Below, piece after piece: positions 18,276 to 27,738 of a stretch of 64,000 nt of DNA (within the stretch, counting starts at the first letter, position 1; each line of letters starts with the position of its first letter). This stretch comes from Thermoplasmata archaeon (GTDB lineage Archaea; Thermoplasmatota; Thermoplasmata; Halarchaeoplasmatales; Halarchaeoplasmataceae). The translations under genes were made by a program, and so were the position numbers. The notes below the pieces were generated by a model. The model had not been told where the DNA came from. It made no database searches and saw nothing but the letters and a program-made list of their open reading frames with translations. The DNA is taken from NCBI GenBank assembly GCA_003552585.1, contig PUNK01000013.1, forward strand, positions 1 through 64,000, given 5' to 3'.

Positions 18276-20276
18276 ATGAAAAAACATACAGCATGGGGAA
18301 TAAGTCTTATGCTCGTAATAGGGCTGATATTGGCATCAGTTCCGGTTATGGGTATGATATTACCCCACGAAAGATACGGACAGGCGTACACCGATGGCAG
18401 TGCTGCGCCTGACGGTTATACTATAACATCGTGGATATACGGTGTTGAATATGAAGACGATGAAATTTTCTTTGGCGACGGGTCATTTACTATAGTTACA
18501 GATGGTGACGAGACCACTGACGATACACAGAAGCAAGGCGGTGTCGACGGAGACGAGATATTCTACAGGATAGAAGATGATGAAGGCAATGTATACATCG
18601 CTGATGAGATCTCTATTTTTGAATCCGGTGAGATTGAAGAAGGAGATCTTAACTTCCAAGAGGGAGCACAGCCGAGCACTGAGGTCAAGATCAACGAACT
18701 GGTTTCACAACCAGAAGATGAAGGGACACAGTATGTGTACATCTATGATCCAACAGGAGAAATAGATCTAACAAGATGGAGATTGGAAGACCACGATGGA
18801 TACTCGGAAACGCTAGATGAACTGGACACACAGTATCACCCAGATCATCCAGAACTACTCTACGTAGACCTAGAAGCAGCACCATTAGGAACAGATGCAG
18901 GTCACTTCATGCTCTCTTGGGACCCCGCTGGATCCGGTGTCGGTGATAACAACTGGGTAGTCATGGACAGAGTCGAGTATGGTGGAGAAGAGTTAGATAC
19001 ATCACCCGAGAATACGATCCACGAACAGCATCCCGATGCACCTGAACAAGGCGAATGTCTCATAAGAGACCCATGGGGACACGATACCGACAACAGTGCA
19101 GACGACTTCATAATCGCCGATGAGACCGGAAGACCAGTAAGTCTGATCATTGACTCCACCGAAGGTGGCTCAGTGACCACACCAGGCGAAGGAACATATG
19201 ATTACATAACAGGAGATGTCGTTGATTTAGAGGCTGAAGCAGACACGGATTACAGTTTTGTAGAGTGGACCGGAGATATAGACACGATAGCTGATCCAGA
19301 ATCTGCAACTACAACGATAACCATGGAAGACGACTACTCGATCACAGCTAACTTCGTAGAGGATATCGAACTCTTGCCTGTTACTGGCTTAGAGGTCACA
19401 AAAGACGAAGGCGCTGGAGATGTCATCCTCGACTGGGATGATGTAGGCGCTCCTGAATACAACGTGTACTACTCAGAGGATCAGCACGCAGACCTCGAGA
19501 CTTGGACTTTGCTCGACACCGTGACTGAAGAAGAGTACATTCACGGGGATGCAATCGGCGGAAGCAACTACTACTACGTAAGAGCGAGCGATGGAACCGA
19601 GGAAGGAGATAGATCAAGCATGGGATTCTGCGTCGAGAACGACTTCGTTTATGATGCTGATGCTAGACTGCATTACGTGTCTGTACCTGGCCGGTTCAAC
19701 AACTTGCAGGAGATAACAGCCAGCGATATAGTCGAGCACATCGAAGGTGACCTGGAATCTTCAGCGTACATCGACAGAGTGGTCAAGTGGAACTACGAAG
19801 AAAGATCTTACACCGAAGCTTTTAGTTATGACGCATGGGGCGAAGTATGGACCGGCGACGATTTCGTAGTCGAGCCAGAGGCCACCCTTGGTATAAGATT
19901 GATCGATGACTTAGATTGGCACGTGAACGGTGTGGACACCGACGAGACGATGGACTTTGTTTACGACGCAGATGCTAGACTGCATTACATATCGGTACCG
20001 TACACAATGGCAGATACGGACGGTGACGGACAGATAACCGCCAGTGATATAGTCACAGCGATAGAAGGTGACCTGGAAACTTCAGCGTACATCGACAGAG
20101 TGGTCAAGTGGAACTACGAAGAAAGATCTTACACCGAGGCTTTCAGCTATGACGCATGGGGCGAAGTATGGACCGGTGACGACTTCGTCGTCGAACCAGA
20201 GGCCGCTGTTGGCATAAGACTGATCGATGACCTCGAGTGGACGCCCGAACTGATAACCCCTCTACAGGAGAGCTAG
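18276..20276 (+). CDS. Secreted multi-domain surface protein (LTD, InlB-type, FN3, two tandem repeats)
   Basis: Very acidic exported protein, 666 residues. A signal peptide spans about 1-26. Next come a carboxypeptidase-regulatory-like domain (D-G-S-A-A-P-D-G-Y-T-I-T-S-W, to about 125), a lamin-tail-type domain (V-K-I-N-E-L-V-S-Q-P, about 128-255), a bacterial-repeat domain (G-G-S-V-T-T-P-G-E-G-T-Y and F-V-E-W-T-G-D), an FN3-like domain (about 365-455) and two repeats at 456-559 and 560-666. No TM anchor or sorting signal follows the second repeat, so it is probably released or held by other proteins. Its FN3-repeat-repeat block is shared with the protein encoded at 23811. Confidence 0.87.
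   Translation: MKKHTAWGISLMLVIGLILASVPVMGMILPHERYGQAYTDGSAAPDGYTITSWIYGVEYEDDEIFFGDGSFTIVTDGDETTDDTQKQGGVDGDEIFYRIEDDEGNVYIADEISIFESGEIEEGDLNFQEGAQPSTEVKINELVSQPEDEGTQYVYIYDPTGEIDLTRWRLEDHDGYSETLDELDTQYHPDHPELLYVDLEAAPLGTDAGHFMLSWDPAGSGVGDNNWVVMDRVEYGGEELDTSPENTIHEQHPDAPEQGECLIRDPWGHDTDNSADDFIIADETGRPVSLIIDSTEGGSVTTPGEGTYDYITGDVVDLEAEADTDYSFVEWTGDIDTIADPESATTTITMEDDYSITANFVEDIELLPVTGLEVTKDEGAGDVILDWDDVGAPEYNVYYSEDQHADLETWTLLDTVTEEEYIHGDAIGGSNYYYVRASDGTEEGDRSSMGFCVENDFVYDADARLHYVSVPGRFNNLQEITASDIVEHIEGDLESSAYIDRVVKWNYEERSYTEAFSYDAWGEVWTGDDFVVEPEATLGIRLIDDLDWHVNGVDTDETMDFVYDADARLHYISVPYTMADTDGDGQITASDIVTAIEGDLETSAYIDRVVKWNYEERSYTEAFSYDAWGEVWTGDDFVVEPEAAVGIRLIDDLEWTPELITPLQES
19641..19952 (+). 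repeat. Surface-protein repeat copy 1 (gene at 18276)
   Basis: Residues 456-559 of the protein, beginning D-F-V-Y-D-A-D-A-R-L-H-Y. Within it, about 120 bases (from about 19743) recur nearly unchanged 321 bases downstream. Core motifs are I-T-A-S-D-I-V, V-V-K-W-N-Y and G-D-D-F-V-V-E-P-E-A. Confidence 0.85.
19953..20276 (+). repeat. Surface-protein repeat copy 2 (gene at 18276)
   Basis: Residues 560-666, starting D-F-V-Y-D-A-D-A-R-L-H-Y. It is three codons longer than copy 1 because of a D-T-D-G-D-G-Q loop, which looks like a dockerin/EF-hand calcium loop. It runs to the end of the gene. Confidence 0.85.
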
Positions 20277-20326
20277 CAGATGAAAAGACATAAATTTATA
20301 ACAAAATGATAAAGGAGAAGATAAAC

Positions 20327-21283
20327 ATGAAAAAGATAATAATAATGGCGTTGGTTTTCTCGTTGGCCCTGGTTTCGCTATCGGGGGCGGCACAAGGAAC
20401 CGTGGACGACCTTGATGGATTTGCAGTGGACAGCTACGACGGAGAGGCGGAGTTCTATGATGGAGATACTTACTATGGGACCATAACAGCGGTTGACCTG
20501 CAGGGAGATAACATTGCCATCAATACGGGTGTCGGTGGTGGTGAAGCAGATGGTTACAGCCTATTTGGATGGGCTGGTGATAGTGAGACATATGGTTGGG
20601 ACCCTGACCCAGCATCTATCGGAAGCGACATATACTTCATAGGTGAGCACCCCGACGGTTACGTCTGGGCGACGTGGAGAGAATCAGAAACTGCTACTGT
20701 AGCTGATCCACAACATTCAATGATGGGTAGATATGAGCCCATACCTACACCTGAAGTAGATGCAGTCGGTCCTGATTACATAAGTATTAACATATCAAGC
20801 CCTACTTACACAGATTTCGATGGTACAACAGGAGAAACTACAGGTCAGGGAACGTTCGAACTGGTCGAAAGCTACGCTGTTTTCATACAGGGCGGAGAAT
20901 ATGAAGACTATACCTACATAGGCGATGCTGATGATTTCTTCGATGGAGACGCTCCGATACCCGCACATCCTGATGATGAAACAGATCCCACCACAGTTGA
21001 CACCGGACACTTCCACTTCAACACAACGGATGACGAAGACATAAATATCGAGCCCGAGACTGAGTACACCATCTACGTCCGCATGAACATCGGACCGGAA
21101 GGACTCGCAGGCGGATACGAAGATGTAGATGACCATTATACAACAACGATCGGCGGTGAATCCACTGACCCGATAGAGACACCGAGCGAATCAGAGTTCG
21201 GACCAGGTATTATCGTTCCAGTTATAGCGATAGTAGGGATGTTCGTGGCAATGACCATCTACAGACGGCGCAGGTACGACTGA
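20327..21283 (+). CDS. Exported protein with tripartite C-terminal sorting signal, probable archaeosortase substrate
   Basis: Surface protein of 318 residues. A signal peptide covers 1-22 (I-I-I-M-A-L-V-F-S-L-A-L-V). An FN3-like domain (about 140-280) starts P-T-P-E-V-D-A-V-G-P-D-Y-I. The C-terminus has an acidic Ser/Thr linker, a short motif E-F-G-P-G, a hydrophobic helix of about 21 residues and a terminal R-R-R-R-Y-D. That order (motif, TM, basic cluster) is the layout of PGF-CTERM and related archaeosortase substrates, although the motif differs. The archaeosortase gene follows 115 bases downstream. The ATG at 20327 is used: AAAGGAGAAG ends seven bases before it and the signal peptide starts there; a further ATG lies at 20306. 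Confidence 0.85.
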   Translation: MKKIIIMALVFSLALVSLSGAAQGTVDDLDGFAVDSYDGEAEFYDGDTYYGTITAVDLQGDNIAINTGVGGGEADGYSLFGWAGDSETYGWDPDPASIGSDIYFIGEHPDGYVWATWRESETATVADPQHSMMGRYEPIPTPEVDAVGPDYISINISSPTYTDFDGTTGETTGQGTFELVESYAVFIQGGEYEDYTYIGDADDFFDGDAPIPAHPDDETDPTTVDTGHFHFNTTDDEDINIEPETEYTIYVRMNIGPEGLAGGYEDVDDHYTTTIGGESTDPIETPSESEFGPGIIVPVIAIVGMFVAMTIYRRRRYD

Positions 21284-21311
21284 AACCGAAGCTAAACGAT
21301 CTACAAACCAA

Positions 21312-21341
21312 AACCCCTTTCCTTTTTTCTATTAATTTTTT
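21312..21341 (+). terminator. T-rich tract after the sorting-substrate gene
   Basis: Several runs of T (CCCCTTTCCTTTTTTC and ATTTTTT) begin about 30 bases after the stop at 21283. Archaeal RNA polymerase stops on such tracts. The right end merges with a TATA-like element for the next gene. Confidence 0.4.
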
Positions 21342-21350
21342 ATAACAAAA
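21332..21350 (+). promoter_or_regulatory. TATA-like element before the archaeosortase gene
   Basis: Identical over 19 bases to 12454-12472. With a transcript start about 25 bases on, the leader to the ATG at 21399 would be about 30 bases. No clear ribosome site is visible before that ATG. Confidence 0.4.
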
Positions 21351-21398
21351 TAGCTAGACGGCGCAAAGTATTTTAACTAACTATATCAATGTTAACAC

Positions 21399-22799
21399 AT
21401 GAGCGGGTTCAACCGCTGGAGGTTTTTCGCAGGGATAATAGTGTTCTTCGCAGGTCTCGACGTGACCTTATTACTCAGCCACATGTCACGCTTGATTGGA
21501 GTCGCTATGTTGTTCGTGGGGGGTTGCCTGATAGCGTCCTCCCACCCGCACTGGTCCAACAGGATGAAAAACAAGATCCCTGAATCTCTCAGGTCTCACT
21601 TCTCGCTCGATAATATGAAGATATATCAGCACCTATTATCGATCGTGCTGATCGCAGCAAGCTTTTACTTTTTTATTCCACAACCCCTCGTTCTACTTCT
21701 AGTGCTAGCCCTGATCATAGCAGTTTGGCTAGTCTTAAAATTTAGCTCATATGGAGACCAACTTCCCCTCATACTCGTTTCCATGGAATTCCAGTTATTC
21801 GTATTCCTCTCGACTTTGATATTCCTAAACTTTGGAACGATCTTTGGATACCGGGATCCACCTGAGATATTTCCAACGATCTTTCTTCTGTCAGCCTGGG
21901 CCATCGAGATGATATATTTACATGGAAGATTAACTAGCCATGTAAAAGAAACTCCAGAAATATCCCTTGAATCAGAAGAAGCCGAGAAAGAGGAAGGGGA
22001 AACCGTGTATCTTTCAGAAAGATTTTTGGATCTTTTTACCTTCCACGGCAGATTTAAAAAATATCTACCATTAGCCGGGATCGCTGTCTTTGTAGGTGTT
22101 TTCGCTTTCAATATCTATATCAGGGGCTATGAGTTGAGTTTTGGCTCACACGATGGTGTTACATTGCTACTCGGAGTCGTACTGATCGCATACAATTACA
22201 TCCCCAAAAAATACTCTTTAGAACGTGATTTTGCTTTGCTCTTCCTGGTATTCCTTTTCCTCATACTCATCCTCCCGATAACCATCATCCACTACTTCTA
22301 TGGAGGGATGACCGAGGCAACAAACTCTCCTGTAGTATACCACCTACTGGCACGTCCAACGGCAGCCTTTTTGAATATCCTAGGCATATCAGCAAACGCT
22401 GCCGTGCGAGGAGAATGGGTTGTCATACGGATGTTAGTGCCATCCGGGGGAACAGCCCAGAATCACATACGAGCTGAGGTGGGTATAGGACTGTCATGTA
22501 CAGGCCTTTATTCAGTGTCGATATTCATCTCTGCCTTCTTATCATTCATAATGACCCATTTCAAAAAATTAGATATGAAATTATTATCGTTCATGGGTCT
22601 CGGTATATTCGCCTCATGGATAGCCAATATACTTAGGATGACCATAATAATGGTGATGGGACACCTATACGGTCTTCAGGCCATGTCTTGGACACACAAC
22701 AATGCCGGCATATTCATCTTCATGGTATGGATAGCTTTATTTTGGGGGCTGATGTTCAAGTATTTCGACATACCACTGCGCACTTTCGGCGGAGAGTAG
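21399..22799 (+). CDS. Archaeosortase/exosortase-family membrane peptidase-transferase
   Basis: Polytopic membrane protein of 466 residues with about 12 hydrophobic segments. The C-terminal part has the exosortase/archaeosortase triad in order: C367 in G-I-G-L-S-C-T-G-L-Y-S, R413 in A-N-I-L-R-M-T-I, and H433 in W-T-H-N-N-A-G-I-F. Known members cut a C-terminal signal of surface proteins and transfer them to a lipid or other anchor. The usual enzyme is about 270-330 residues; here an extra N-terminal membrane region (about 1-220, with an acidic cytoplasmic loop at 184-205) is attached. The gene just upstream encodes a fitting substrate. Confidence 0.86.
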   Translation: MSGFNRWRFFAGIIVFFAGLDVTLLLSHMSRLIGVAMLFVGGCLIASSHPHWSNRMKNKIPESLRSHFSLDNMKIYQHLLSIVLIAASFYFFIPQPLVLLLVLALIIAVWLVLKFSSYGDQLPLILVSMEFQLFVFLSTLIFLNFGTIFGYRDPPEIFPTIFLLSAWAIEMIYLHGRLTSHVKETPEISLESEEAEKEEGETVYLSERFLDLFTFHGRFKKYLPLAGIAVFVGVFAFNIYIRGYELSFGSHDGVTLLLGVVLIAYNYIPKKYSLERDFALLFLVFLFLILILPITIIHYFYGGMTEATNSPVVYHLLARPTAAFLNILGISANAAVRGEWVVIRMLVPSGGTAQNHIRAEVGIGLSCTGLYSVSIFISAFLSFIMTHFKKLDMKLLSFMGLGIFASWIANILRMTIIMVMGHLYGLQAMSWTHNNAGIFIFMVWIALFWGLMFKYFDIPLRTFGGE

Positions 22800-23810: not shown

Positions 23811-26324
23811 ATGGTTCATACGCGGTCAGCCATGCGAGAGAAGATGGTTTCAATGCTTCTGCTCTGTTTAGTTATGCTCAGCATAGTGGCAGTGTCAGGA
23901 GGGAACGATATCGAGCTATGTGATACGGACGAAGATCATTCCTATATGGATATCCCTGCACCGGAAAATTTTGAGGTGAGGAAGGAAGGCGATGATGTTT
24001 TACTGGAATGGGATGCCATCGAGGATGTAAGTCATTATAAGGTGTACTACTCCACCGATCTATATTCCTCCTTCCCGGAGGATTGGGAAGAAGACCTGAC
24101 TTCGGACGAACGATGGACTCACGAAGACGCTCTTCTGAGTGGAGAAAACAACTACTATCTTGTTCGTGGGGTAGAGGATGAGATGGAAGGGAGGATCTCG
24201 AACACCGGGGCCTGTGTGAAGATGGACCTCACATATGACCATGATCAACGATTGCACTATGTATCCATCCCAAATGGATTTGATAACCGAGATAAGATCT
24301 CTGCCAGCGATATAGTCGAGCACATAGAAGGGGATCTGAAAACGTCTGAGTACATCGACAGTGTGGTCAAGTGGGATTACACACAAAGAGGTTACACCGA
24401 GGCTTTCAGTTACGATGCAATTGTACAGGAATGGTCAGGCGAAGACTTCGTAGTCGAACCCGAGGCGACCGTCGGACTAAAGCTCGTCGACAACCTGACA
24501 TGGTCCGTGAATGCAGTGGAATCTTATGAAAGGATGGAGTTCAAATATGAGTCAGATGCAAGACTTCATTATATCTCTGTTCCGTACACGATGCTCGATC
24601 GGGACGCTGGAGGTCATATAACGGCCAGTGATGTAGTGATGGATGTGGAAGGTGACCTGAAAACATCTGAGTACATCGACAGCGTGGTCAAGTGGGATTA
24701 CACCGAAAGAGGTTACACCGAGGTTTTCAGCTATGAGGCAATGAGCCAGACATGGGGTGGTGACGACTTCATCGTCGAGCCGGAGGCCGCTGTCGGTCTA
24801 AGACTGGTCGCTGACCTTGAATGGACTCCCACCCTTTCAAATTTTGAACCTCCCATCGTGTGCTCGGTGGAGATAGAGGAAGATATCATCGTGGAGTTCT
24901 CGAAAAGTATGAACAAGACTACTTTTGAAGATAGGGTGTTTTTAGACGATATTTCACAATATCCCGAATGGGAATCAGAGCAGGTCATGCGGATAGGATA
25001 CGATGACCAAGATCCTAGATGGCAGGTACTGACTATCGAGGCGTCGGTAACCGATATGTATGGAAACAACCTGGATGGGGATGGGGATGGCATATCATAT
25101 GGAGGCGAATCCGATGATTTCGTCTACAAGATCTTCACCGGAACTAGACCTGAAATAGTGGTCGAACAACCGCCCGAAGAACTACTTTTGGGAGAAGCCC
25201 CGATAATAACTGCAAACGTTACCGGTGCTGAACAAGTCTTTTTAAACTATACTATCAACGATGAAGTACACAACGTGAGCATGGAAAACAACAGCAGCTA
25301 TCATCATAGGATACCACCTGTATGGCATCCCGGGACTATCGAATATCATTTGACCGCTGTCGATCACGATGGTATTTGGAATAGTTCAGAACAACATACT
25401 ATTGAGGTCGAGGACCCAGGAACTTGGGGCTCTTCTTCGATAATTCATACATCTGAAACGAATAAAAGCTGTAAGACGGAAGACATAAGCATCAACGTTT
25501 CCACCACCTATCATGTTCAACCGGTTCAAGTGAACCTTTCCTTCATCGAGCCGTATGGTCACATGCACAACATATCTATGCAGAAGAACATAGATAACTG
25601 GACATGTGCTATACCGGCACAAAACAGAACTGGTATCCTTGAATACTGGTTCGAGATAAAATACGAGAACGGACCAACCGTCGGATCCAAAACCTATGAG
25701 ATCTCTCTGGAAAATCCTATCGAAGTCGATTTCCAAGATTTAAGGGGAAAAGCAGATGAGAACTTGGACTTCGAAGTGATACTTTCTTCACCACGAGGTG
25801 TTCAAGCAGCGACCTTGCATATGCAGGATGACGACCTGTCGATAAACGAGGATCTGACGCTCGTCGAAGGTGATCCTGGAAACGGCACGTGGGGTGCAAC
25901 GATAAAATTACCTGAAGGAGAGTTTGACTACAGTCTCAGCGTGGTTGATATGGATGGAGATGATGTCCTTTTCCGATCCAACACACCTCTAAGAGTAGAT
26001 GGATCTGAAGGCTCCTTTAACTTATTATGGTTGGTCATCCTAGCAGTGTCATCGGCCGCCATAGCCTTCGTAGTGATGTATAGATCCAGAGAGAAAGAAG
26101 TAGAAGAAGAAAAAGTTATCGCCACAGAATCCGAAAACTCCAAAACTGAAAACGAACAAGTTAATAAAGAACACTGTATTATCTGTTTTGGTCGGCTAAA
26201 AGATGGAGAGAACCACTATACCTGCGATGGTTGTGGCAGTCTGTTCCACCCGGCCTGTATACACGAAGTTGTCAAATGTCCTATGTGTACAAAAGAATAC
26301 GAAGGTGTTGAAGATGGTCGATAG
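23811..26324 (+). CDS. Surface protein with FN3, tandem repeats, Ig-like domains, one TM and a cytoplasmic RING/PHD-like zinc finger
   Basis: Receptor-like protein, 837 residues. A signal peptide covers about 1-30, an FN3-like domain about 45-135, repeats 139-242 and 243-340, then a Big-type domain (E-F-S-K-S-M-N-K-T-T) and Ig-like domains to about 730. One TM helix spans 738-758. The tail of about 79 residues is charged and ends with C789-x2-C792-x12-C805-x2-C808-x4-H813-x2-C816-x6-C823-x2-C826, a C4HC3 zinc pattern like PHD or RING-variant fingers. By topology the finger is inside the cell. Whether it binds protein partners or acts with a ubiquitin-like modifier is unknown. Its 3' end overlaps proS by 11 bases. 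Confidence 0.86.
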   Translation: MVHTRSAMREKMVSMLLLCLVMLSIVAVSGGNDIELCDTDEDHSYMDIPAPENFEVRKEGDDVLLEWDAIEDVSHYKVYYSTDLYSSFPEDWEEDLTSDERWTHEDALLSGENNYYLVRGVEDEMEGRISNTGACVKMDLTYDHDQRLHYVSIPNGFDNRDKISASDIVEHIEGDLKTSEYIDSVVKWDYTQRGYTEAFSYDAIVQEWSGEDFVVEPEATVGLKLVDNLTWSVNAVESYERMEFKYESDARLHYISVPYTMLDRDAGGHITASDVVMDVEGDLKTSEYIDSVVKWDYTERGYTEVFSYEAMSQTWGGDDFIVEPEAAVGLRLVADLEWTPTLSNFEPPIVCSVEIEEDIIVEFSKSMNKTTFEDRVFLDDISQYPEWESEQVMRIGYDDQDPRWQVLTIEASVTDMYGNNLDGDGDGISYGGESDDFVYKIFTGTRPEIVVEQPPEELLLGEAPIITANVTGAEQVFLNYTINDEVHNVSMENNSSYHHRIPPVWHPGTIEYHLTAVDHDGIWNSSEQHTIEVEDPGTWGSSSIIHTSETNKSCKTEDISINVSTTYHVQPVQVNLSFIEPYGHMHNISMQKNIDNWTCAIPAQNRTGILEYWFEIKYENGPTVGSKTYEISLENPIEVDFQDLRGKADENLDFEVILSSPRGVQAATLHMQDDDLSINEDLTLVEGDPGNGTWGATIKLPEGEFDYSLSVVDMDGDDVLFRSNTPLRVDGSEGSFNLLWLVILAVSSAAIAFVVMYRSREKEVEEEKVIATESENSKTENEQVNKEHCIICFGRLKDGENHYTCDGCGSLFHPACIHEVVKCPMCTKEYEGVEDGR
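24225..24536 (+). repeat. Surface-protein repeat copy 1 (gene at 23811)
   Basis: Residues 139-242, beginning D-L-T-Y-D-H-D-Q-R-L-H-Y. It has the same I-S-A-S-D-I-V, V-V-K-W-D-Y and G-E-D-F-V-V-E-P-E-A core as the repeats at 19641 and 19953. Confidence 0.85.
24537..24836 (+). repeat. Surface-protein repeat copy 2 (gene at 23811)
   Basis: Residues 243-342, beginning E-F-K-Y-E-S-D-A-R-L-H-Y. The core segment recurs 321 bases after the same segment of copy 1, the same spacing as in the gene at 18276. The calcium-type loop is degenerate (D-R-D-A-G-G-H). Confidence 0.82.
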
Positions 26325-27738
26325 TAAAATCGAAGCGGAAAAAAAGTTCGAAGACTTCAGTGAATGGTACAACGACATATTGGAGCGGGCAGACCTCATC
26401 GACAAAAGATACCCTGTAAAAGGTATGAATATATGGAAACCTTACGGTTGGAAGCTTATGAGCTTGATAGATAAGGAAACGAGAAGGCTCATGAATGATA
26501 CCGATCATCAAGAAGTTAAGTTTCCCTTGTTGATCCCTGAGGAAGAGTTTCAGAAAGAGGCTGATCATATCAAAGGTTTTGGAGAAGAGGTATATTGGGT
26601 AACACATGCAGGGAAAAGGAGATTAGATATCCCTCTGCTCTTGAGACCGACCAGTGAAACGGCGATGTACCCTGTATTCGACTTATGGATAAGATCTCAT
26701 GCGGATCTACCTTTAAAGATCTTTCAGATGGTAAATGTGTTCAGATATGAAACAAAGCAGACGAGGGCATTCATGCGTATGAGAGAGATCCATTTCTTCG
26801 AGGCGCACACCTGTCATGCAACAGAGGGTGAGGCTGAAAGACAGATATATCAAGATCTTGAGATAATGGACGAGATCGCCAGAATGTTGTGTATACCATA
26901 TCTAAAGCTAAAGAGAACAGACTGGGACAAGTTCCCAGGAGCAGATTATACTGTGGGTGGTGATGCTCTCCTACCGACGGGTCGTTTACTACAGATAGCC
27001 GGTATCCATCAGTATCTTACGAACTTTTCTGAAGCCTACGATATCACCTACGAAGACCTCGATGGTGAACATAAAAATGTTCATCAAACAACCTATGGCA
27101 TGTCCGAGCGCCTGATCGGTGCTCTCATCGCTATCCATGGTGATGATGTTGGACCTGTTATTCCCCCATATATCGCACCTATACAGGTCAGAATAATACC
27201 CATACAGTATGGGGAGGACAGAAAAATTGTAGATCACTGCAAAACCCTTTTAGACAAATTGATAAAAGCGGATATCCGAGCAGATATTGATGACAGAGAA
27301 GATGTACGTCCAGGGAGTAAGTTCTACGAGTCCGAAGAAAAAGGGATCCCTGTTCGTTTAGATATCGGTTCCAACGAGTTAGAAGATGACATTATAACCA
27401 TAGTGCGAAGAGATACTGGTGAGAAAAAAACCGTCTCCACAAAAGATGCTATAAAAGAATTAAAATTGATCTTCGAAACGATGCAATCAGAGATGTACGA
27501 ACGTGCTGAAGAGTTTCTGAAAAATAATATAGTAGATGCATCAGACATCTCAGAGATATCTGAAGAAAAGGTATATCGGATCGGATGGTGTGGAACATTC
27601 GAATGTGGAGAGGGTATAGAAGAGAGCACAGATAGGAGCATATTGGGGACACTTTATGATGGTGAAGAGTACTCTAGTAAATGTCTTTGGTGTGAAGAAG
27701 AAACAGATACCGTAGCATACCTATGTAAAACTCACTGA
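26314..27738 (+). CDS. proS: Prolyl-tRNA synthetase, archaeal/eukaryotic type
   Basis: Charges tRNA-Pro, 474 residues. Class II motifs are visible: R-P-T-S-E-T-A-M-Y (motif 2 region), F-R-Y-E-T-K and G-A-D-Y-T-V-G-G-D-A. The anticodon-binding domain holds V-R-I-I-P-I, and the C-terminal zinc domain holds C-G-T-F-E-C-G and C-L-W-C. The ATG at 26314 is chosen because the protein homologous to known ProRS begins there; the frame is open further upstream inside the previous gene. It overlaps the previous gene by 11 bases. Confidence 0.96.
   Translation: MVDSKIEAEKKFEDFSEWYNDILERADLIDKRYPVKGMNIWKPYGWKLMSLIDKETRRLMNDTDHQEVKFPLLIPEEEFQKEADHIKGFGEEVYWVTHAGKRRLDIPLLLRPTSETAMYPVFDLWIRSHADLPLKIFQMVNVFRYETKQTRAFMRMREIHFFEAHTCHATEGEAERQIYQDLEIMDEIARMLCIPYLKLKRTDWDKFPGADYTVGGDALLPTGRLLQIAGIHQYLTNFSEAYDITYEDLDGEHKNVHQTTYGMSERLIGALIAIHGDDVGPVIPPYIAPIQVRIIPIQYGEDRKIVDHCKTLLDKLIKADIRADIDDREDVRPGSKFYESEEKGIPVRLDIGSNELEDDIITIVRRDTGEKKTVSTKDAIKELKLIFETMQSEMYERAEEFLKNNIVDASDISEISEEKVYRIGWCGTFECGEGIEESTDRSILGTLYDGEEYSSKCLWCEEETDTVAYLCKTH

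Follow-up and report, generated by a model that had tools for sequence, protein, structure and literature searches.

Here, we describe a single ORF (23811..26324, +; 837 aa) in the window, by which we mean the whole 64,000-nucleotide stretch of DNA analysed, encoding what reads as a type I surface protein with a cytoplasmic RING-type finger. The protein begins with a predicted signal peptide, whose hydrophobic core spans residues ~12-30 (MVSMLLLCLVMLSIVAVSG; 23844..23900, +), and continues with an ectodomain (23970..26000, +), a transmembrane (TM) helix placed by hydropathy at residues ~736-757 (FNLLWLVILAVSSAAIAFVVMY; 26016..26081, +), an acidic and probably flexible linker (residues 758-788; 26082..26174, +; model pLDDT ~55) and a C4HC3 RING-type zinc finger (residues 789-826; 26175..26288, +). 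Because the TM helix is followed directly by the basic residues RSREK, the tail is predicted to be cytoplasmic. Orthologues and other members of the finger family likewise have a TM helix at the equivalent place ahead of the finger. The original prediction had this order right (ectodomain, single TM helix, given as residues 738-758, then finger), as it did the eight ligands, their spacing and their residue numbers; its base coordinates for the motif (26172-26286) were off by 2-3.

The ectodomain has an Fn3-like start, two copies of a ~100-aa domain with the pattern LHY[VI]SVP...YIDSVVKWDY, and then Ig/CBM-like sandwiches, scoring 26.7 bits against Pfam CBM_56 (cut-off 27). The module formed by residues 54-342 is found again, at 60% identity, in the window ORF 18276-20276 and also in many proteins of the organism's own family. 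The ORF at 18276-20276 (+) encodes a surface-type protein with an InlB-type repeat and a weak LTD match, and has neither TM helix nor finger. The neighbours of the finger ORF that were examined are an exosortase gene, a radical SAM gene and a prolyl-tRNA synthetase (ProRS) gene (26314..27738, +; Pfam tRNA-synt_2b, HGTP_anticodon and ProRS-C_1). The ProRS ATG at 26314 gives an 11-nt overlap with the finger ORF; this gene is genomic context and lies outside the mechanism. At 20306-22799 (+), the archaeosortase/exosortase-family gene scores 46.3 bits against a cut-off of 23, and the gene directly before it codes for a small secreted protein whose end is weakly PEF-CTERM-like (17.0, cut-off 23). 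The finger protein itself can be ruled out as an archaeosortase substrate, as its C-terminus carries no sorting signal and 80 aa follow the TM helix and basic residues. Within the window we recognised no gene for a Ubl, an E2 or a JAMM protease.

The finger motif, CIICFGRLKDGENHYTCDGCGSLFHPACIHEVVKCPMC, has the arrangement C-x2-C-x12-C-x2-C-x4-H-x2-C-x6-C-x2-C and is the only match to a broad C4HC3 pattern among the 110 six-frame window ORFs of at least 100 aa. Neither 1000 rounds of residue shuffling within the ORFs nor 200,000 shuffles of the tail alone produced a C4HC3 match. Whole-protein BLAST among 61 relatives found orthologues in the same family at 28-48% identity, and all eight ligands are kept in those of G001, G013, G005, G011 (twice) and G006, and in that of G010 as far as the contig edge. 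This test, in which orthologues are found through the ectodomain, is not circular and is less biased than a count of profile members. Gene neighbours also recur as in the window, with ProRS beside the orthologue at L011 and the radical SAM gene at L013. The eight ligands are invariant in 54 aligned finger members, an invariance that, like the genome counts given below, is partly circular because the profile was built from ligand-bearing sequences. The same alignment has 4 residues between C4 and H and 6 between C6 and C7 in 54/54 members, with C4 almost always followed by Gly and C7 by Pro in 49/54; two further profile matches (L083, L091) have lost ligands. Ligand conservation and shuffling together rule out pure chance or a zinc ribbon for the window motif. 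A second match in the window's genome (C26:46554; 1.2e-5) is zinc ribbon-like and was dropped. We conclude that the window motif is a genuine RING-type finger, one that, judged from its ligands, would bind two zinc ions.

Structure prediction, proposed earlier as a check, places RING E3 domains as the best fold matches. The AlphaFold model (mean pLDDT 75.6, pTM 0.54) reaches pLDDT 85-90 over the finger core and predicts a cross-brace RING fold. Its top Foldseek matches are the RING-H2 E3 domains of Arkadia, RNF165/Ark2C, RNF126, RNF13 and RMR1 (probability 0.97-1.00; TMq ~0.5; best E 2.9e-3, which is modest), and the best crystal matches have an rmsd of 1.7-2.8; several PHD structures rank lower. 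A search of PDB sequences with the finger profile likewise found RING-H2 E3s best (Arkadia, 7.8e-9). The family departs from canonical RING spacing, which is C3HC4 or C3H2C3 with x1-3 and x2-3 on either side of the fourth ligand: its order is C4HC3, with x4 between C4 and H in 54/54 members, and C4HC3 is the prokaryotic RING configuration according to a review (PMC11354881). The window finger lies under every Pfam cut-off, including that of Prok-RING_1 (PF14446; 18.7-21.6 bits, cut-off 29.1). Prok-RING_1 nevertheless matches 41/54 finger members at E <=0.01, and an Aciduliprofundum-like relative (G027) reaches 60.8 bits. As the window finger scores at best 21.6 against 29.1 and G027 lies far above the cut-off, we call the former RING-type and Prok-RING_1-related, and not a certified member.

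The original prediction held such fingers to be uncommon in archaea, which the sampled Thermoplasmatota contradict: the finger is present in 117/293 genomes with a 13-member profile at E 1e-3, and in 68 at E 1e-6, and several per genome are common. It also ends proteins unrelated to the window protein. We distinguish three types of carrier, namely surface proteins of 800 to ~2000 aa with a signal peptide, a TM helix and a finger on the inner side; in family f6 (including G042), small proteins made up of a TM helix and a finger; and TM-less, coiled-coil-rich proteins of ~1450-1650 aa (some genomes have longer ones) in which a beta domain directly precedes the finger. The beta domains of G017, G001, G064, G075 and G091 are related (22-49 bits, with E-values from a small database), which makes the coiled-coil carriers look like one core protein. 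One protein tail in G097 bears three tandem fingers (L095:7805-13765, -).

Ubiquitin-type genes are also found in the phylum. The Pfam E2 domain (UQ_con) passes its cut-off in 62/293 Thermoplasmatota genomes, and around the E2 gene lies a conserved operon that encodes a Ubl of ~80 aa ending PDPEGG, an E2 containing both HPN and the catalytic Cys, and a JAMM protease that passes the JAB cut-off. The Ubl profile matches ubiquitin in the PDB over its full length up to GG, and the AlphaFold model of the canonical E2 matches eukaryotic E2s. In a scan of named genomes (titled Methanomassiliicoccales, Thermoplasmata, Euryarchaeota etc.), the catalytic Cys was found in 80/80 kept E2 loci, a Ubl adjoins E2 in 77 of the 80 (76/77 with GG near the end) and JAMM is present at 76. 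The Ubl(GG)-E2(Cys)-JAMM operon (L126, L127, L128, L176-L255) is widespread in Methanomassiliicoccales and other Thermoplasmatota; no E1 gene was recognised in the operons examined. A different E2 type occurs in G061 (L134:7172-7855, +), where an N-terminal Ubl with GG (RDPKGGLNG...) and an E2 share one ORF, followed by JAMM; it looks like a Ubl precursor fusion.

The finger and these genes tend to go together. A strong finger is present in 50/62 E2-positive genomes and in 18/231 others (Fisher 1e-29, with shared ancestry ignored), and among the 61 relatives 30/30 E2-positive genomes have the finger and 0/10 fingerless genomes have an E2. In four family-level lineages, finger and E2 genes are neighbours; in G091 and G096 the finger gene lies beside E2-JAMM, and in G080 it is close to E2. 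The Caldiarchaeum-type arrangement, in which a RING gene shares an operon with Ub, E1 and E2, is absent from the window and for Ubl-E2-JAMM occurs only in G064 and G075, where the finger gene is directly beside these genes and no E1 was recognised in the operon. For the finger family, a tie to ubiquitin-type genes is supported. Adjacency is ruled out as a general rule, with a finger gene in the flanks of 1/80 named E2 loci, and we recognised none of the Ubl, E2 and JAMM genes beside any TM-type finger protein. Fingers are also present in families f13, f22 and f33, in which E2 was undetected, and the finger would therefore have E2-independent functions as well.

What partner does the window organism's own family offer? 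With a Thermoplasmatota E2 profile, 8/15 of its genomes have one E2-like gene each, and the product is a single protein of 220-254 aa in which a Ubl domain without a diglycine is fused to an E2 domain. The catalytic column of the seven aligned fusions reads H, S, R, K, R, S, R, with Cys in 0/7; in four g2 genomes a Cys lies one residue after it, a non-canonical place. Six own-family genomes encode the fusion divergently from the ~1450-aa coiled-coil finger protein, and this gene pair sits between Trk potassium-uptake genes and queH, eIF2alpha and L44e. Ubl-E2 fusion loci are L152:7411-8094 (-), L154, L155, L156, L157, L158 and L159. From its sequence, the fusion appears to be an archaeal UEV-like protein whose active site has apparently been lost. 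We had considered the PF00179 matches as a plain case for an active E3, and dropped this as the own-family E2 has no catalytic Cys.

A genome search for ubiquitin-type genes was also among the original proposals and, productive as it is across the phylum, it found no E2 or Ubl in the window's genome (G000), whose assembly is missing the syntenic block. The Ubl-E2 fusion, its 1454-aa coiled-coil finger partner and eIF2alpha were all not found there, and instead of a full-length TrkA there is, at the edge of a contig, a TrkA-like fragment of 61 aa. The assembly is rated 91% complete, yet eIF2alpha is not found. As eIF2alpha is expected in every archaeon, the likeliest explanation is that the assembly lacks the block, and the missing E2 is probably an assembly gap. 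Hence the absence of E2 from G000 says nothing, and we dropped the argument that the finger is not E3-related for want of an E2 in G000, where eIF2alpha, TrkA and the 1454-aa partner are missing too. We infer that the window organism has the fusion.

The finger also differs from tested E3s in residues of known importance. In the Caldiarchaeum RING protein, I30, W58 and R69 matter for ubiquitylation, and the mutations W58A and R69A impair the E3 (PMC5654768). In our family the hydrophobic E2-contact position C1+2 is Ile in the window and I/V/L in 46/54 members, the loop-2 Trp is present in 0/54, and the linchpin Arg/Lys at C8+1 in 2/54 (Thr in the window). With no loop-2 Trp, no linchpin and a dead E2 in the family, canonical E3 activity of the window finger is unlikely, and the E3-like activity suggested for it in the original prediction is not supported for this copy.

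In light of these features, what might the finger do at the inner face of the membrane? The best explanation and best single mechanism, which we advance tentatively as having somewhat less than an even chance of being right, is that it is a RING-type docking module recruiting an E2-fold partner or a related Ubl component. Our best reading is that the window finger descended from Ubl-linked RINGs and belongs to a Thermoplasmatota-wide family that includes the Pfam Prok-RING_1 proteins. The ancestral context would have been a ubiquitin-like system in which a coiled-coil core protein with a C-terminal finger stood alongside a Ubl ending in diglycine, an E2 and a JAMM protease, and copies of the finger would also have been placed behind the TM helix of surface proteins. 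There, the finger may recruit the dead, UEV-like Ubl-E2 fusion of the own family, or a related Ubl component, and this recruitment would tie the surface protein to a cytoplasmic Ubl-E2 module. Besides the ligand conservation, the RING-H2 matches and the association with E2 genes, the residues at C1+2 and after C7 favour docking; weighing against it are the families with fingers but no detected E2, the 1/80 E2 loci with a flanking finger gene, the lack of recognised Ubl, E2 and JAMM genes in the window and beside TM-type fingers, and the sub-threshold Pfam scores of the window finger. The main rival, a Ubl-independent adaptor, is a less probable but serious contender: the finger would cap surface-protein tails as a general, zinc-stabilised module for protein interaction and might, for example, anchor the surface layer to a coiled-coil partner in the cytoplasm or to one in the membrane, and its present function would be unrelated to Ubl proteins. 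Such a cap is consistent with the persistence of fingers in the three families without a detected E2, with the TM-less finger protein of 1599 aa kept by the Aciduliprofundum-like genome, with the very different ectodomains on which TM-linked fingers occur, and with the many copies in some genomes (15 finger matches in G097). It sits poorly with the strong phylum-wide co-occurrence with E2, the adjacency in four lineages and the finger's preferential similarity to E3 RINGs, all of which the docking module would accommodate.

By analogy with the eukaryotic PA-TM-RING proteins RNF13 and RMR, the protein could instead be an active transmembrane E3, the ectodomain sensing a ligand and the finger stimulating Ubl transfer from a charged E2 to a membrane-proximal substrate. 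The RING-H2-like predicted fold, the ectodomain-TM-finger order and the occurrence in other parts of the phylum of complete Ubl(GG)-E2(Cys)-JAMM operons speak for this, but we consider it unlikely given that the only E2 found in the organism's own family has no catalytic Cys and is fused to a Ubl without diglycine, that the Trp and linchpin positions are as described above, and that no E2 was found in G000, though the block is missing from that assembly. Far less probable again is a PHD- or C1-type finger that would read a peptide tail or lipid at the inner membrane face. The C4HC3 order and the PHD-like x4 between C4 and H would fit, as would weak PHD (PF00628; 20.9 bits for the window tail, cut-off 24) and C1 scores and the PHD structures among the weaker fold matches. 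The PHD family is, however, defined by a C6-C7 loop of at least 12 residues; that loop is 6 in every member, there is no aromatic residue two before C7 (Val in the window), and Foldseek ranks RING first. Of the RING/PHD-like label originally given to the finger, the RING half is supported over the PHD half.

Returning to the docking module, a broader reading would be that Thermoplasmatota have receptor-like TM proteins whose cytoplasmic RING brings Ubl conjugation or a UEV-like module to the membrane, the E2 of one or more families now being a dead adaptor. We regard this as doubtful; if true, archaea would have an equivalent of transmembrane RING signalling. Other prokaryotes carry Ub, E1 and E2 together in operons, and archaeal RING-containing ubiquitin operons are known from Aigarchaeota and Asgard archaea (PMC5654768, PMC6043591), with E3-like RING proteins in such systems named only for C. 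subterraneum and Asgard archaea (PMC6043591); a survey records RING-type E3s in just one marine group II genome (PMC4327156). The openly available main texts yielded no description of TM-linked RING fingers or of a Thermoplasmatota Ubl-E2-JAMM operon; we claim no priority, and Thermoplasmatota operons may already be in the supplementary figures of PMC5654768 or the map of PMC6043591. Archaeal RINGs tied to Ubl proteins have thus far come mainly from Aigarchaeota and Asgard archaea (PMC5654768, PMC6043591), and the window finger leads to a phylum-wide Thermoplasmatota family, Methanomassiliicoccales methanogens included, with a conserved Ubl-E2-JAMM operon and RINGs on membrane proteins. If the finger does bind the E2-like protein, it would become testable outside the Asgard line how membrane-bound RING signalling arose and how an E2 was converted to an adaptor.

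The four closest known systems invite comparison. The finger resembles Prok-RING_1 (PF14446) as a C4HC3 RING-like prokaryotic finger, and its family includes the strong G027 match, but it lies behind a TM helix on a surface protein, whereas that strong example is TM-less and ~1600 aa long. In the Ub/E1/E2/Rpn11 operon of Caldiarchaeum subterraneum, the archaeal RING gene srfp is likewise gene-linked to Ubl, E2 and JAMM (PMC5654768, PMC6043591), and the hydrophobic E2-contact residue after C1 is shared with our family. Srfp, however, is small, is modelled as RING-H2 and needs its Trp and Arg linchpin for full activity (PMC5654768), whereas the window family is C4HC3 and without Trp and linchpin, and most of its genes lie apart from the E2 operon. 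The resemblance to eukaryotic transmembrane E3s seen in the original prediction is real in layout, since PA-TM-RING/RMR proteins (RNF13, RMR1) share the signal peptide, ectodomain, single TM helix and cytosolic RING, and the RING domains of these two are among the Foldseek matches of the window finger; unlike them, the window protein has no Pfam match to a PA domain, is C4HC3 and not C3H2C3, and comes from a family with no known active E2. Lastly, the own-family E2-fold partner without an active-site Cys recalls UEV proteins, the catalytically dead E2 variants such as Mms2, from which it differs in having an N-terminal Ubl without diglycine and in being found with a coiled-coil RING protein and not with an active E2.
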